NCBI GenBank assembly: GCA_021814145.1
Contig: JAKAIY010000022.1
Span: 1-34,165, forward strand
Length of the DNA: 34,165 nt
From: Chloroflexota bacterium
GTDB taxonomy: Bacteria > Chloroflexota > Ktedonobacteria > Ktedonobacterales > JADMIN01
Reading direction: 5' to 3'
The translations under genes and the position numbers were made by a program. The first letter of the stretch is position 1. Each line of letters opens with the position of its first letter. The notes beneath the pieces were generated by a model. It ran no database searches, was not told the origin of the DNA, and saw only the letters and a list, made by a program, of their open reading frames with translations. Positions 18,856-25,050 of the stretch are shown in pieces.

Positions 18856-20034
18856 ATGCCCCAAAAGATTGTGATCATCGGCGGCGGCGTTGGTGGAACG
18901 ATTGTCGCCAACGTGACCGCACGCGCGCTGGGAAGTGAAGATGCCCAGATCACGCTCATTGACGCGACTGGGCAGCACATCTACATGCCTGGATGGCTCT
19001 ACCTGCCGTTCAATACGGCTGAGGGCATTGAGTTATCGCGGCCTGAGCGCTCACTTCTGCATCACCGGGTTCAATTGCTAATTGGCGTGGTTGAGAGCGT
19101 CGAGCCGGCAGAGCGGAGTGTCCGCGTGCGTCGCGTGCTGGCAGGTGGTGAATCGGTGTCAGAGGTCATTCCATATGACTATCTGGTGCTTGCGACAGGC
19201 GCCAGGCTCGCGCCACAAGATCTTCCTGGACTGGTAGAAGGCGCTGGTCAGTGGCATGACTTCTATAGCCTGGAAGGCGCGCTCCGCTTGCGATCGGCCC
19301 TGTCAGAGTTTGAAGGTGGGCGGATTGTTCTGGCGATTGGCGGCATTCCGTATCGCTGCCCGCCAGCTCCGCTAGAGTTCGTCTTTCTACTTGATGAATG
19401 GCTGACGAAGCGGAACATCCGATCACGGAGTGAGATCCAGTATCTCTACCCGCTGCCGCGAGTGTTCCCGATCGAGACAGTCGCGGAACTCGCCACACCG
19501 ATCCTTGATGAGCGCGGCATCAAGTATGAGACGTTCTTCAACACGGAGAGCGTGGATACTGAGCGAAAGGTGGTGACCTCGCTCGAGGGCAGTGAGATAC
19601 CCTACGATCTCCTGGTGGTGGTGCCGCCGCACCGTGGTGTCGCCGCGATTGAGGCGTCTGGTCTGACGGACCCGCAAGGCTGGATCCCCACAGAGCGCAC
19701 GACGCTCGAGGTGAAGGGACAAACTGGTATCTACGCGATAGGGGACGCGACTGATCTGCCGGTTTCGAAGAGTGGCTCAGCCGCGCACTTTGAGGCCAAG
19801 GTCGTCGCCAGGCGAATTATCGCCGCTATCCGAGGAGAAGAGCCCAGCGACCAGTCAGACACCTACACCGGTGAGGTGATGTGCTTCCTGGAAACCGGCC
19901 ATAACCAGGCGAGCCAGCTGGTATTCGATTATGAGCACCCGCCGCGCCCGCCACGGCCCAGCCTCTACTACCACATGGAGAAGCAGCTGTTCAATCGCGC
20001 GTACTGGTACATCGTGCCGCAAGGCCTGGTGTAG
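18856..20034 (+). CDS. sqr: Sulfide:quinone oxidoreductase-like FAD-dependent enzyme
   Basis: A 392-aa flavoprotein. The FAD-binding GGGVGG loop is at residues ~9-14, the second motif is YLVLATGARL, and the C-terminal FAD motif is GIYAIGDATDLP. Two redox cysteines lie where SQR enzymes have them: Cys168 in YRCPPAPLE and Cys343 in MCFLETG. A third cysteine found in some SQRs is absent. The C-terminal LYYHMEKQLFNRAYWY is an amphipathic stretch suited to membrane attachment and quinone access. It would oxidise sulfide to sulfane sulfur, passed to TusA/DsrE2. It ends the cluster before a strong terminator. A related FAD enzyme with another thiol substrate is possible. Confidence 0.88.
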   Translation: MPQKIVIIGGGVGGTIVANVTARALGSEDAQITLIDATGQHIYMPGWLYLPFNTAEGIELSRPERSLLHHRVQLLIGVVESVEPAERSVRVRRVLAGGESVSEVIPYDYLVLATGARLAPQDLPGLVEGAGQWHDFYSLEGALRLRSALSEFEGGRIVLAIGGIPYRCPPAPLEFVFLLDEWLTKRNIRSRSEIQYLYPLPRVFPIETVAELATPILDERGIKYETFFNTESVDTERKVVTSLEGSEIPYDLLVVVPPHRGVAAIEASGLTDPQGWIPTERTTLEVKGQTGIYAIGDATDLPVSKSGSAAHFEAKVVARRIIAAIRGEEPSDQSDTYTGEVMCFLETGHNQASQLVFDYEHPPRPPRPSLYYHMEKQLFNRAYWYIVPQGLV

Positions 20035-20047
20035 GCAGACTTCGCAC

Positions 20048-20093
20048 ACGCGCCGCCAGGCACACTACCCGGTGTGCCTGGCGGCGCGTTTTT
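20048..20093 (+). terminator. Strong rho-independent terminator after sqr
   Basis: CGCGCCGCCAGGCACAC (20049-20065) and GTGTGCCTGGCGGCGCG (20072-20088) form a perfect 17-bp stem (18 with the flanking A-T pair) with loop TACCCG, followed by TTTTT. It is the clearest terminator in the window and separates the sulfur genes from the Nudix gene. Confidence 0.95.
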
Positions 20094-20212: not shown

Positions 20213-20665
20213 ATGAAAGACGCACAACCAACAGCAACAGGCGTTGTCACCTGTTTCATTCTGCGGCAATCCGCCGATGGCCAGGATGAGGTGCTGCTCG
20301 TGAGACGCAGTGACCGCGTACGCACCTATCGCGGCCACTGGGCGGCCATTAGCGGATATCTGGAGGCGGGAGCCACCCCGCTTGACCAGGCGCGTGAGGA
20401 GTTGCGGGAGGAAGTGGGGCTGGAAGCTGATGACGCGCCGCTTGTTCGAGCGGGAGAGCCGCTGACTTTCACGGACAACACTATCGGCGTTACCTGGACA
20501 GTGCACCCATTCCTGTTCCGGCTGCGCGAGGGCCGCGAAATTCATACTGACTGGGAAGCCAACGCTTCACGATGGATGCCGCCGACAGAGCTCGTATCGC
20601 TGCCCACCGTGCCGATGCTGCGAGAGGCGCTGGCGCGAGTCTATCCTGGAGGCGCCAGCGCATGA
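20213..20665 (+). CDS. Nudix-domain protein with a non-canonical Nudix box
   Basis: A 150-aa single Nudix domain. The box starts at Gly48 and reads GYLEAGATPLDQAREELREE, then VGL. The metal-binding Glu residues of the E-L-x-E-E core are present, but position 7 is Ala54 instead of Glu and position 15 is Glu62 instead of Arg. These two normally form a salt bridge, so both partners are changed. Hydrolysis of a nucleoside diphosphate derivative is plausible but the substrate is unknown. The ribosome site is poor. Its TGA overlaps the ATG of the IF2B-like gene (ATGA), so the two are translationally coupled and probably work together. It follows the sqr terminator. Confidence 0.85.
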   Translation: MKDAQPTATGVVTCFILRQSADGQDEVLLVRRSDRVRTYRGHWAAISGYLEAGATPLDQAREELREEVGLEADDAPLVRAGEPLTFTDNTIGVTWTVHPFLFRLREGREIHTDWEANASRWMPPTELVSLPTVPMLREALARVYPGGASA

Positions 20666-21786
20666 GCGCGCGATTCGACGCCCCACTCCCACTCCCTTCC
20701 CGCTGGGCGTCGCTGGTGGATGTTGTGCGCGACGATCATATCCACGGCGCAAGCTGGCTCGCGCGCAGCGCCGCCGAAATACTCGCGGAGCGCGCAAGAG
20801 AAGAATCCGCCAGGATCGCCAAAGCGCGCGAAACGGGCAGGGGTAGCGCATCCGCATCAGGAAAAGAGAGCCTCAATGATCTCGCGGCGCTGGCATGGGG
20901 GCTGGCGTGGGCGCGCCCCAGCATGGCCGCGATCGCCAACACGATGACAGCTATCTGGAAACTGGCGCTTCCCGCTTCGCTGGAGGATCTAGAGCGGGTG
21001 AAAGCCGCGGCGGCTATCGGGCGGCTGCGCGACGAGGCGATGCGCCTGCGTGACAGCTGGAGTCACGTCACTACTGAACTGGAGCGCCACATCAGCAAGC
21101 TGCTGCGCGACCCGGTTTTTACGCTCAGCCGGTCTGGGTCCGTGGAGCATGCGCTCATAGCCGCCGCGAGCGCGCGCTCGCCAGACGCGCCAATGGAAGT
21201 TATTATCGCGGAGTCTCTCCCTGGAGGCGAGGGTGTAGATATGGCGCGTGCGCTGGCCGCCGCTGGAGCGCGCGTTTCCGTCGTTACCGATAGCGCGGTG
21301 GGCGTAGGCATGGCTCGCGCGCGAACGCTGCTGCTGGGCGCTGATAGCGTACGTAGCGATGGATCGCTGGTCAATAAGGTCGGCACGTACCCTGCGGCGT
21401 TGGTGGCCGCCGATTTAGGCATTCCGGTCTATGCGCTCTGTGAGCGCCTGAAGATCACGCCACAATCCTACCCGCTGACGCTGGAGCGCGTGTCTGGAGC
21501 CGCCGGAGAGGAATGGAAAGAGGGCGGCTGGCTCTTCGATGTGACGCCAGCGCGCCTGGTTACCGCGATCATTACCGAAGAGGGCGCATTATCACAGGAA
21601 GCGGTCGCACGACTAGCGTCCGACGCGGAGGTGGCGCTGACGCGGCTTAAGAATTACGTGGAGCGGGCGCCTGCTCGCCACTCCCAGGGCGCTCATCCTG
21701 AGAGCGCGTCTCCAGAACGAGCGCCAGCGCGCGGGCGTAAGCCTCCGCTGCGCTCTGACAGTCGTAGTAGGAATCGCCTATCATGA
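20662..21786 (+). CDS. eIF2B-alpha/beta/delta-like (IF-2B family) protein lacking the isomerase cysteine
   Basis: A 374-aa protein of the IF-2B family, which holds sugar-phosphate isomerases (MtnA, ribose-1,5-bisphosphate isomerase) and eIF2B subunits. The core matches: FTLSRSGSVEHAL, VIIAESLPGGEG, VVTDSAVG, LLLGADSVRSDGSLVNKVGTYPAAL and IPVYAL. The isomerase Asp is kept (Asp228 in GAD), but the T-H-C-N segment that carries the catalytic Cys reads L-S-R-S-G (~155-159), as in eIF2B-like subunits. An isomerase reaction is therefore doubtful. GGAGG lies 9 nt before the ATG, which overlaps the Nudix stop. The C-terminal ~45 residues are Arg/Ser/Pro-rich and coincide with the overlap with the minus-strand gene. 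Confidence 0.82.
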   Translation: MSARFDAPLPLPSRWASLVDVVRDDHIHGASWLARSAAEILAERAREESARIAKARETGRGSASASGKESLNDLAALAWGLAWARPSMAAIANTMTAIWKLALPASLEDLERVKAAAAIGRLRDEAMRLRDSWSHVTTELERHISKLLRDPVFTLSRSGSVEHALIAAASARSPDAPMEVIIAESLPGGEGVDMARALAAAGARVSVVTDSAVGVGMARARTLLLGADSVRSDGSLVNKVGTYPAALVAADLGIPVYALCERLKITPQSYPLTLERVSGAAGEEWKEGGWLFDVTPARLVTAIITEEGALSQEAVARLASDAEVALTRLKNYVERAPARHSQGAHPESASPERAPARGRKPPLRSDSRSRNRLS

Positions 21787-21964
21787 TGCGGTAGCGCGCT
21801 TTCCATTTCCGGGCGGCGGCAGGCGCGAGGCGATACAGCGTATAGGTTCGCGCATATGATTCGAGGAGACGCCGCAGCTTCACCTCACCAGTCAGGTGGA
21901 TGTCATAGGCGGCGAGGCGTTCCACAACATCCAGGGGAAGCGGCGTGTCCTGTTCTGGTTCCAT
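21647..21964 (-). CDS. Small hypothetical protein overlapping the 3' end of the IF2B-like gene
   Basis: A 105-aa protein I do not recognise. The central part, KWKARYRIMIGDSYYDCQSAA and the following AYARALALVLETR, reads as a real strand-helix unit, and the first half is helical (VERLAAYDIHLTGEVKLRRLLESYA). The last ~17 residues are low-complexity. GGGGAG lies 10 nt upstream of the ATG, which supports expression. It is convergent with the IF2B-like gene, overlapping it by 140 bp, and divergent from the ROK-like gene. No domain or function can be named. Confidence 0.6.
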   Translation of the reverse strand: MEPEQDTPLPLDVVERLAAYDIHLTGEVKLRRLLESYARTYTLYRLAPAAARKWKARYRIMIGDSYYDCQSAAEAYARALALVLETRSQDERPGSGEQAPAPRNS

Positions 21965-22131
21965 GAGCTCGCATCTCCCCAGCCGTGTGAACCTGCGCGG
22001 CCATCTCAGACTCCTGGGGCGCCCGAGGAGCGCCTGGGAAGCGCGTCAGTGACGGTAAGTGTATCGCTAGCGCCCGGGAGTGTCAAATCAGGAACAGGCG
22101 CGACCCGGAAACGCGGGAGTGGAGAATTCGC

Positions 22132-23127
22132 ATGGCCAACGCAGGCGCGGGATCAGAGCGCACTGACCCCGCTTATCTGGGACTGGAGATCGGTGAGCTC
22201 GCCGCATGGATAACGATGACGTATGGCGCGGACCGTCCGGAGCGACAGTGGCGAAAGCGCTTTATGACGCCTCCGACTCCTGACGAATTCTTCCAGCATG
22301 TCGCGGAAGGAGCCTGCATAGCGCGCGGCGGCGCTGGAATCGCTGGTGTGGGTGTCGCGACATGGGCGCATGTAAATAGCGCGGATGGCTCTGTTCAGGC
22401 CAGCGCTATCTCGCCAGATTGGGAAAGCGTCGCACTCGCCACGCGCCTGAGCGACCTGCTTCACGCGCCCGTACGTCTGCGCTCCGCCGTGGACGCCGCC
22501 GCACTCGCGGAGACGAGGCTGGGCGTAGGGAAAGGCGCTGATCCAGTGGTGTATGTCCATCTCGGACGGGAAGTGTTATCCGCTCTCGTTTACCATTGCG
22601 CGCCTCTCATCGGAGCGCATGGCCGGGCCGGACAGATTGGGCACTGGCGGATCGCTGAAGACGGGCCTCGCTGCGCCTGTGGAGCGGTAGGCCATCTCAA
22701 CCCTTTGTGCTCATCGCAGGGTTTTGTCCGGCAGGCGATCGGGCTGGCTGCGCTGGATGAGAGCGTTCTAGCGGCGATGACTGAGGCGACCGGCGGGCGT
22801 GTCGAAGCGATCACAGCGCAGCGCGTTGTGGCCCTTGCCAGCGCTGGCGTCACGCCGCTGCGTGACCTGACGCGGCGATCAGCGGAGGCGTTAGGGATCG
22901 CGCTTGCGCGGCTGGCGCTGGTTGTGGACCCGGAAGTGATTGTCCTGGATGGCCCGCTTGGAGTGGCTGGCAGTCCATTTATCGAATGGACAGGTGAGCG
23001 GATGACGGAGGAGTTACGCGCGGTTTCCGGGGGTGAGCAGGCGCCCCGGTTAGCCTCCGCGCGCCTGGCTCCGCTGAGCGCGCTGACCGGCGCATGGCTA
23101 CTAGGGAAAGACGCGGCGGACAAGTAG
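22132..23127 (+). CDS. ROK-family (sugar kinase/repressor fold) protein with lost catalytic residues
   Basis: A 331-aa ROK-fold protein. The family layout is clear: first strand YLGLEIGELAAW, AGVGVATWAH, the DAAALAETRLG helix, GRAGQIGHWRIAEDG and the Zn-site region CACGAVGHLNP. Key positions differ from active kinases. The phosphate motif D-x-G-G-T reads E-I-G-E-L; the N-D-A-N motif holding the catalytic Asp reads S118-A-V-D, so the Asp is Ala119; the third Zn cysteine is His; and the E-x-G-H Glu is Gln. No DNA-binding domain is present, so it is not a typical ROK repressor. Sugar phosphorylation is unlikely; sugar sensing is an inference. GGAG lies 7 nt before the ATG. A kinase-like gene follows by 67 bp. 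Confidence 0.82.
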   Translation: MANAGAGSERTDPAYLGLEIGELAAWITMTYGADRPERQWRKRFMTPPTPDEFFQHVAEGACIARGGAGIAGVGVATWAHVNSADGSVQASAISPDWESVALATRLSDLLHAPVRLRSAVDAAALAETRLGVGKGADPVVYVHLGREVLSALVYHCAPLIGAHGRAGQIGHWRIAEDGPRCACGAVGHLNPLCSSQGFVRQAIGLAALDESVLAAMTEATGGRVEAITAQRVVALASAGVTPLRDLTRRSAEALGIALARLALVVDPEVIVLDGPLGVAGSPFIEWTGERMTEELRAVSGGEQAPRLASARLAPLSALTGAWLLGKDAADK

Positions 23128-23194
23128 CCTAGCGCAATAGCGCATAGTGAGGAATGCGTGGCATAATAGCCTCGTGCCATGAGATGTTCGCTGG

Positions 23195-24505
23195 ATGTGT
23201 CATGGCCTGGTCTGTTGGGAAAAGAGATTCAGGGATAAGTGTGGCGTCGAAGTGGATCCGCGAGAAGACACGTTGAAAGCCACCTGGCTGGCGAATCGCT
23301 ATCAGGTCGCGGGGCTTCGGGCGCAGGGAGCGTTTTGCCTGGTCTATCAGGGACAGGACACTGTATTGCAGCGTCCTGTCGCTATCAAGGCCCCCTTTGC
23401 GACGCATGCTGACATGTATCGCGCCACGCTAACACAGACGGCTGCTCTGGCGCATCCCGCTTTCCTCGCGCTCTACGATGTCATTGAACAGGATGGGGCG
23501 CTGTTCCTCGCATATGAATTTGTCGAGGGACGTCCACTTGCGAGCTATATCGCTACGGGCCTGCCCCTGCGCCGCGCGCTCGCGCTGGTCCTTCAGGTAA
23601 CACGCGCGCTGGCCTACGCGCATGCGCATGGCGTCACTCATGGTGACCTAACCCCATCCGCCATTCTGATAGATCACGCCGCGGTCGCGCGGGTTGCGAA
23701 TGTTGGTCTGGCGGCGGATGACGCCTACTTTGATGATGTCGCCACGAGCGCATACGCTTCGGGGGTCGCGGACGATCCCGATATCACCGCGTCGCTGCTC
23801 TCGGAACGTGTCGAGCGGCTGGATACCTGGGCGGCGGCAGCGCTTCTCTGGCAGCTCATTACTGACGCGGATATCGAAAAGAGCTTCCTTGCGCGTGTCA
23901 GATCATACCGCGCGGATACGCCAGACCAGTTACGCGATATAATCGAACGGGCGATGCGTGTCAGCCATCCGAATGCGATTTCCACGGCGGAATCACTAGG
24001 AATCGAGCTGGCGGCGCTCAACGATGCGCTCGCGGCCAATAACGTCGTGGGCGAAGAGTCTACTCCTCCCATGATTCTCGCGCTGCGATCCGCGCGCAAA
24101 CATGCCACGGGAGCCGTGACGGGAGCAGCGGTTGACGTCGCTGGAGTGCGTTGGCGTGGAATGAGCGCTAGAGGCGTTTCGCCTACCGCAACCACCAGTT
24201 ATGGTGATCCAGACGATGGAGCGCTCGCTCAGGATGACCCCAATATCACCCAACCAGCCGGTGACGCTGGATACGAAGCCCAGGCTCCGCGCCTCCGTCT
24301 GCCGTCGCGTTCAACCAGCGTGACTGATCCACGCCTGCCCGGCGCCCAATATGCGGCCGCACAGGAGACACAGCCCTGGCGCGCGGAGGCGCGCGGGCGT
24401 CTCAGTGGCTGGTTGTGGGCGTTGATCTCGCTGGCGGTTTTCGCGCTCTGCTTCCTGGCGGGATTCTTCCTGGCGCCTGCGATACCGCTTCCACAATTAC
24501 CCTGA
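23195..24505 (+). CDS. Membrane-anchored Ser/Thr protein kinase-like protein, probable pseudokinase
   Basis: A 436-aa protein with a Hanks-type kinase fold at ~30-275, a Pro/Ser/Thr/Asp-rich linker at ~280-405 and one C-terminal membrane span (WLWALISLAVFALCFLAGFF). It keeps the beta3 Lys (VAIK, Lys65) and an F-helix-like DTWAAAALLWQL. The Gly loop is degenerate (AGLRAQGAFCLVY), HRD is H149-G-D, the K and N of D-L-K-P-x-N are Thr and Ala, and DFG is N169-V-G. Losing the metal-binding Asp and Asn argues for a pseudokinase with its kinase domain inside the cell. No clear ribosome site was found; GTG 23252 or TTG 23273 are alternative starts that would still keep the kinase fold. The ROK-like gene is just upstream. 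Confidence 0.82.
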   Translation: MCHGLVCWEKRFRDKCGVEVDPREDTLKATWLANRYQVAGLRAQGAFCLVYQGQDTVLQRPVAIKAPFATHADMYRATLTQTAALAHPAFLALYDVIEQDGALFLAYEFVEGRPLASYIATGLPLRRALALVLQVTRALAYAHAHGVTHGDLTPSAILIDHAAVARVANVGLAADDAYFDDVATSAYASGVADDPDITASLLSERVERLDTWAAAALLWQLITDADIEKSFLARVRSYRADTPDQLRDIIERAMRVSHPNAISTAESLGIELAALNDALAANNVVGEESTPPMILALRSARKHATGAVTGAAVDVAGVRWRGMSARGVSPTATTSYGDPDDGALAQDDPNITQPAGDAGYEAQAPRLRLPSRSTSVTDPRLPGAQYAAAQETQPWRAEARGRLSGWLWALISLAVFALCFLAGFFLAPAIPLPQLP

Positions 24506-24546: not shown

Positions 24547-25050
24547 ATGCGTCAACTCTGGGCGCCATGGCGCATGACCTATGTCGGCGGTGAGAACCCC
24601 CGAACAGGGTGTATCTTCTGCGCGAAAGCGAGTGAGAGCAAAGACGAGGAGAATCTGATCCTTGTTCGCGGCGAAACGTGTTTCGCGCTGATGAATCTCT
24701 ACCCGTATAACACGGGCCACCTTATGATCGCTCCCTACGCCCATGTGTCGGGTATCCAGCAGATGAGCGTTGATTCGCTGACCGAAATGATGACGCTCTC
24801 CCAGCGCCTTCTCGACGCGCTCCAGCAGGCGCTGGGGCCGCACGGCTTCAATCTTGGCATCAACCAAGGTGAGATCGCGGGAGCAGGCATCGCTGATCAC
24901 GCGCACCTGCATATCGTGCCGCGCTGGAGTGGTGACACCAACTTCATGCCGGTTATCGCGGATGTGAAAGTCCTGCCAGAGTTTCTGGAGTCAACCTACC
25001 AGAAGATTCGCGAGCGGCTCCAGATGACAGCGGCGCCGCGTGAGCCATAG
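24547..25050 (+). CDS. HIT-family hydrolase / Ap4A phosphorylase-like protein
   Basis: A 167-aa HIT protein. The N-terminal LWAPWRMTYV and the C-I-F-C pair (GCIFCAK) are typical of the Ap4A phosphorylase-like branch, and the active site is HAHLHIVPRW with the histidine triad. The NTGHLMIAPYAHV segment is the usual nucleotide-binding strand. It should cleave a dinucleoside polyphosphate or nucleoside phosphoramidate or ester; the natural substrate is not set by sequence. An AAAAGG lies ~8 nt before the ATG, 41 bp after the pseudokinase gene. It may be cotranscribed with that cluster, but it is also common as a lone housekeeping gene. Confidence 0.92.
   Translation: MRQLWAPWRMTYVGGENPRTGCIFCAKASESKDEENLILVRGETCFALMNLYPYNTGHLMIAPYAHVSGIQQMSVDSLTEMMTLSQRLLDALQQALGPHGFNLGINQGEIAGAGIADHAHLHIVPRWSGDTNFMPVIADVKVLPEFLESTYQKIRERLQMTAAPREP

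Follow-up and report, generated by a model that had tools for sequence, protein, structure and literature searches.

The locus considered here raises the question of why four neighbouring proteins with the folds of the Nudix, IF-2B, ROK and protein kinase families should all depart from their catalytic motifs, and whether they jointly form a ligand-sensing module for sugar phosphates or nucleotides, as a preliminary description of this DNA had proposed. The window, i.e., the whole analysed stretch of 34,165 nucleotides, corresponds to contig C66 in a draft genome of 3.9 Mb, and the families of the order to which this genome belongs are designated f1 (the window's own), f2, f3 and f4. The relevant features are as follows:

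20048-20089, plus strand: intrinsic terminator of the SQR-like gene, with a 19-bp stem, a 4-nt loop and a T run
20213-20665, plus strand: Nudix protein (Pfam match at 1e-14; 30 orthologues)
20662-21786, plus strand: IF-2B family protein (Pfam match at 1e-36; best solved relative 1vb5)
21647-21964, minus strand: small conserved gene (105 aa), with 44-58% identical relatives at the equivalent place in f1
22132-23127, plus strand: pseudo-ROK protein (Pfam match at 4e-29; motif columns in 44 orthologues)
23195-24505, plus strand: pseudokinase with a C-terminal transmembrane segment (Pfam match at 4e-15; 46 of 47 order genomes)
24547-25050, plus strand: HIT protein, the downstream neighbour in f1, outside the order-wide pair

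The terminator has a folding energy of -46.2 kcal/mol (z -7.4, hairpin folding) and is absent from the list returned by a consensus terminator scan. The locus had been described as a plus-strand run from a strong terminator to a HIT gene; the hairpin is real and the HIT gene does start at 24547, but the small minus-strand gene had been overlooked. The ATGA overlap reported for the first two genes was found at 20662-20665, which sets the IF-2B start at 20662, while the true start of the pseudokinase may be about 23255, later than 23195. The small gene is convergent with the IF-2B gene and divergent from the ROK gene, and its relatives occupy the equivalent place, or lie just upstream of the ROK gene, in most f1 genomes. 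Its profile matched 37 of the 47 order genomes, with one marginal match among 353 others of the phylum. Pfam, PHROG and PDB searches returned no convincing match for the 105-aa protein, its PDB matches being rejected because they stem from a short repeat present in designed proteins; a fold from the single sequence was of low confidence (pLDDT 47) and was left unused. Upstream of the terminator, the SQR-like gene (18856-20034) has the type III sulfide quinone reductase model as its top NCBIfam match, under the cut-off of that model. At approximately 12.6-20.1 kb of the window, AAA_33, VIT1, GNAT, USP, DsrE and SQR-like genes are inserted between the OGG and Nudix genes; in G005, G007 and G010, unlike in the window, the Nudix gene directly follows OGG.

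Profile matches confirmed the Pfam family of each of the four proteins, and inspection of the motif columns bore out the claim that all of them deviate. The window kinase, whose matches among solved structures are of the PknA and PknB types, carries NVG in place of DFG, as had been described, and its catalytic loop (HGDLTPSA) is altered at the HRD-Arg, the loop Lys and the loop Asn besides. An orthologue, one per genome, was detected in all but one of the 47 order genomes (E<=1e-24), and 46 kinase sequences were recovered, as compared to 44 for the ROK protein. The VAIK Lys is kept in 46/46 kinases; the HRD-Arg is replaced by Gly, the loop Lys by Thr and the loop Asn by Ala, Ser or Thr (46/46 each), and the DFG-Asp by Asn (45/46). 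The HRD-Asp is kept in 43/46, with Asn in G028, G031 and G032; G028 is the genome whose kinase has the DFG-Asp, but it lacks the HRD-Asp. Of the residues that characterize an active Ser/Thr kinase, the VAIK Lys (46/46) and mostly the HRD-Asp (43/46) are thus present, while the loop Asn (0/46) and, in all but one orthologue, the DFG-Asp (1/46) are missing. A C-terminal hydrophobic segment, recognized by hydropathy only, is present in 39/46, several of the others being truncated by contig ends. The protein thus has the attributes of a membrane-anchored bacterial pseudokinase, i.e., a fold identified by profile, broken motifs and, by hydropathy only, a transmembrane segment, and the suggestion that it serves as scaffold or output is plausible. 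As controls, individual stretches of the same genome were examined: thirteen of 14 other kinase frames possess an HRD-type loop with Asn and DFG, DLG or DFD, while one lacks an HRD-like motif by the pattern used. A scan of genome contigs with the kinase returned five loci, which were judged to be ordinary, unrelated kinases.

The ROK fold of the protein encoded at 22132-23127 is indicated by its Pfam match, together with a GH...CxCG zinc-type motif, and Pfam returned no domain besides ROK in the window protein. Its top match among solved structures is the kinase domain of human GNE/MNK (E 2.3e-24). As had been noted, Ala replaces the catalytic Asp (RSAVDAAALAE) and GLEIGELA stands in place of D-x-G-G-T, so that both hallmarks of a ROK sugar kinase, namely D-x-G-G-T and the catalytic Asp of the ENDAN motif, are lacking. 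Of the 44 orthologues, G040 is gapped at the catalytic position and 42 of the remaining 43 are without the Asp; G013 alone has it, though not D-x-G-G-T. The first Asp of the phosphate loop is present in 1/41. The GH His is invariant (44/44), as is CxCGxxGH (44/44), in which His replaces the third zinc Cys. The f2 proteins exhibit the sugar-pocket motifs DNNANAA, GEIGH and GHLE, while in f1 and f3 the residues of this pocket are eroded and not conserved. Another ROK protein of the window's own genome has NNDAN and CxCGxxGC, and its loop reads GVDIGRT. Because the departures recur in orthologues while own-genome paralogues are canonical with few exceptions, they are beyond chance.

In all 42 genomes with both genes on one stretch, the ROK gene lies directly upstream of the pseudokinase gene on the same strand, at a distance of -8 to 278 nt. 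Outside these 42, G033 is at a contig edge, G009 has the ROK and kinase genes on different contigs, G028 (locus L155) and G036 (L151) possess the pseudokinase gene and no ROK gene on the stretch read, and G013 has the ROK gene without the kinase gene. The ROK partner is possibly dispensable, since no adjoining ROK gene is seen in G028, G036, G033 and G009. The linkage could in part be inherited gene order; the flanks of the pair in f2 (asparaginase, CoA-transferase and aminotransferase) differ from those in f1. A ROK-kinase distance correlation of 0.94 was left out of the evidence, as vertical descent alone yields it. Within genus g12, dN/dS amounts to 0.02-0.07 (ROK) and 0.06-0.13 (kinase), as compared to 0.03-0.07 for the adjacent asparaginase gene, and the proximity of the first two values to that of a neighbouring enzyme indicates that the genes are not decaying. 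Judged on sequence, the ROK protein and the pseudokinase are the unit for which there is real evidence, the Nudix and IF-2B proteins representing a weaker, looser pair.

The Nudix box of the window protein, GYLEAGATPLDQAREELREEVGL, has A7 and E15, and thus, as had been described, lacks the E7/R15 pair; E16, E19 and E20 are all present. These metal-ligand Glu residues are invariant (30/30 orthologues), while position 7 is Val, Ile or Ala in 30/30 and position 15 is Thr, Val, Gln, Glu or Ile, never Arg, among the same orthologues. The protein therefore retains the metal-binding Glu residues of a Nudix hydrolase and lacks E7 and R15. Its matches among solved structures, to NUDT18 and CoA pyrophosphatase, are weak. 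In the window's own genome, a pattern search recovered five other Nudix boxes, all canonical, a control from which two loci that missed the pattern are excluded. Nudix relatives also occur on the minus strand in the small-genome phylum members G053 and G065 (L140 8361-8771 and L159 8311-8718), where the box is two residues shorter and the YTE..EE core is the same.

The IF-2B protein has Ser in place of the isomerase Cys (TLSRSGS), again as described, and keeps the GAD Asp and the NK Asn. The Cys position is Ser in 29/29 orthologues and the Asp is kept in 30/30; of the catalytic Cys and Asp that characterize MtnA and R15P isomerase, the Cys is thus replaced. The nearest solved relative, Pyrococcus PH0440 (1vb5, E 7.8e-20), reads VIITHSFSSTV at this position and thus has Ser as well, while the other IF-2B protein of the window's genome has THC and GAD, like MtnA. 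A Cys135Ser variant of PH0208 is inactive, yet binds R15P with a Kd of 13.8 uM, while its Cys135Ala variant does not bind the substrate (PMC5789824), and in eIF2B-alpha the ancestral pocket accommodates sugar phosphates (PMC8187479). By analogy with these two cases, a ligand-binding, non-isomerising role may reasonably be proposed for the window protein. The four proteins are not of one kind: the ROK protein and the kinase are true pseudoenzymes, the Nudix protein keeps its metal ligands and the IF-2B protein resembles Cys-less relatives such as PH0440. Searching plasmids for relatives of the Nudix and IF-2B proteins yielded nothing useful.

In f1, the only family in which the contiguous run was observed, the genes are part of a longer syntenic block with the order DUF72, unknown gene, GT4, OGG, Nudix, IF-2B, small gene, ROK, kinase, HIT, acylphosphatase, GatC and GatA. 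The f1 tally, which leaves out G010, finds the full run on one contig in the window, G005 and G004, a compatible arrangement interrupted by contig ends in G001 and G007, and the run without the small gene in G002; the two pairs lie apart in G006, G008, G003 and G009. The pairs are also apart in f2 and f3, where the residue changes persist, and adjacency of the Nudix and IF-2B genes was observed in f1 and in G013 of f4. The proposed linkage of all four genes therefore holds for ROK and pseudokinase, whose adjacency is kept order-wide, and not for Nudix and IF-2B, which are located elsewhere in the rest of the order. Two outcomes had been named in advance as speaking against the proposal, namely scattered orthologues and close homologues with intact catalytic residues; the former was found only in part, as the ROK-kinase linkage is conserved, and as to the latter, no orthologue examined is fully canonical.

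These distributions bear directly on the idea that all four proteins constitute one ligand-sensing module assembled in f1. Contiguity in the three genomes with a full run, the consistent arrangement in G001 and G007 and that in G002 minus the small gene are in its favour, as is the clustering of non-canonical members of four families whose paralogues are mostly canonical. However, the run is embedded in a longer block with housekeeping genes and interrupted by a minus-strand gene, and the pairs separate in four f1 genomes and in f2/f3 with the residue changes nevertheless kept. The f1 run is explained by inherited gene order, which does not in itself demonstrate joint function. The single module, with a nucleotide or sugar phosphate handled or sensed by Nudix and IF-2B and the output supplied by the ROK-pseudokinase pair, was not upheld, and we regard it as unlikely. 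An even less probable explanation, to which we attach very little weight, is that of four decaying genes that are neighbours by chance. Large families commonly include one degenerate member, and the f1 pairs evolve faster, with measured dN/dS values of 0.19-0.29; these are nevertheless well below 1, the frames are open, specific substitutions are common to the whole order, and the selection test disfavours decay. The earlier view that the genes are conserved and constrained rather than decaying is thus sustained, as is its emphasis on the membrane pseudokinase.

It is also conceivable, if improbable, that the kinase and the ROK protein retain an unusual catalysis, e.g., one without Mg2+ or with another transfer chemistry. 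The survival of the VAIK Lys throughout and of the HRD-Asp in most orthologues makes residual nucleotide binding or unusual activity possible, and new activities are reported for the pseudokinases SelO and SidJ in a review (PMC12599244). Against this stand the alteration of both kinase metal-ligand positions throughout, the Asn at the HRD-Asp position in three genomes, and a ROK protein devoid of both phosphate loop and catalytic Asp. With the motifs ruined, and adjacency and selection kept order-wide, the ROK-pseudokinase pair most probably serves as a non-catalytic signalling or scaffold unit. The explanation that we favour, with moderate confidence and from sequence comparison, is that the ROK protein and the pseudokinase form a conserved membrane complex without catalytic function, accompanied by an independent Nudix/IF-2B ligand-binding pair. 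The conserved losses, the pairing and the purifying selection are demonstrated, while complex formation, ligands and output are proposed.

According to this ROK-pseudokinase model, the core would be a two-gene unit of pseudo-ROK followed by membrane pseudokinase, two unrelated kinase folds. The pseudokinase, having lost the residues for the usual Mg-ATP binding, would be anchored in the membrane through its C-terminal helix, and its ROK partner, which has kept its fold and zinc-type motif and lost its phosphoryl-transfer residues, would most likely be in complex with it, the two acting through binding and conformational change, rather than catalysis, as a scaffold or allosteric regulator. In f2, a large family, the ROK protein may sense a sugar, since the residues expected to bind it are kept; in f1, where these are eroded, a structural role would be left. 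The upstream pair would consist of a Nudix hydrolase that, to judge by its metal ligands, is probably active, beside an eIF2B-alpha-like protein in which Ser for Cys should permit sugar-phosphate binding and not isomerisation. More tentatively, the pair may represent an undescribed order-wide signalling unit of two dead enzymes, in which the binding of a sugar to the ROK protein would be relayed through the pseudokinase. To our knowledge, a partner has been identified for few bacterial pseudokinases; the present one adjoins the same degenerate sugar kinase nearly always across the order, which provides a testable partner and a possible ligand. Within the one library searched, no paper was found that joins a pseudokinase with the ROK family, or the ROK family with a pseudoenzyme.

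The bacterial Ser/Thr pseudokinases described in the review include ActPs1-3 (incl. MviN), GLW, CP1, DYD, DLHK and EssB/YukC, and its text makes no mention of Chloroflexi (PMC12599244). The window pseudokinase resembles these families in its PknB-like fold with broken motifs, and shares a membrane segment with EssB and many ActPs3 members (PMC12599244); a scaffold role is plausible. It differs from them, as far as the passages compared go, in its motif set (VAIK kept, HGDLTPxA, NNF/NVG for DFG) and in being encoded beside a ROK protein. The latter is similar to ROK kinases and repressors (GNE/MNK, glucokinase, Mlc/NagC) in its fold, GH and CxCG zinc-type motif and, in f2, its sugar-pocket residues, yet window-type proteins are distinguished by the absence of D-x-G-G-T and the catalytic Asp and by His for the third zinc Cys. 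The IF-2B protein is like PH0440, of the eIF2B-alpha/R15P isomerase/MtnA family, in that Ser occupies the Cys position while the Asp and the Asn are retained; it is set apart by the neighbouring Nudix gene and by the presence, in the same bacterium, of an MtnA-like protein with the Cys. Finally, Haloferax HVO_1934 is annotated as a NUDIX family hydrolase/eIF-2B domain protein (PMC8576121), and, likened by this annotation, the same two domains are fused in one polypeptide there and encoded by adjacent genes here.
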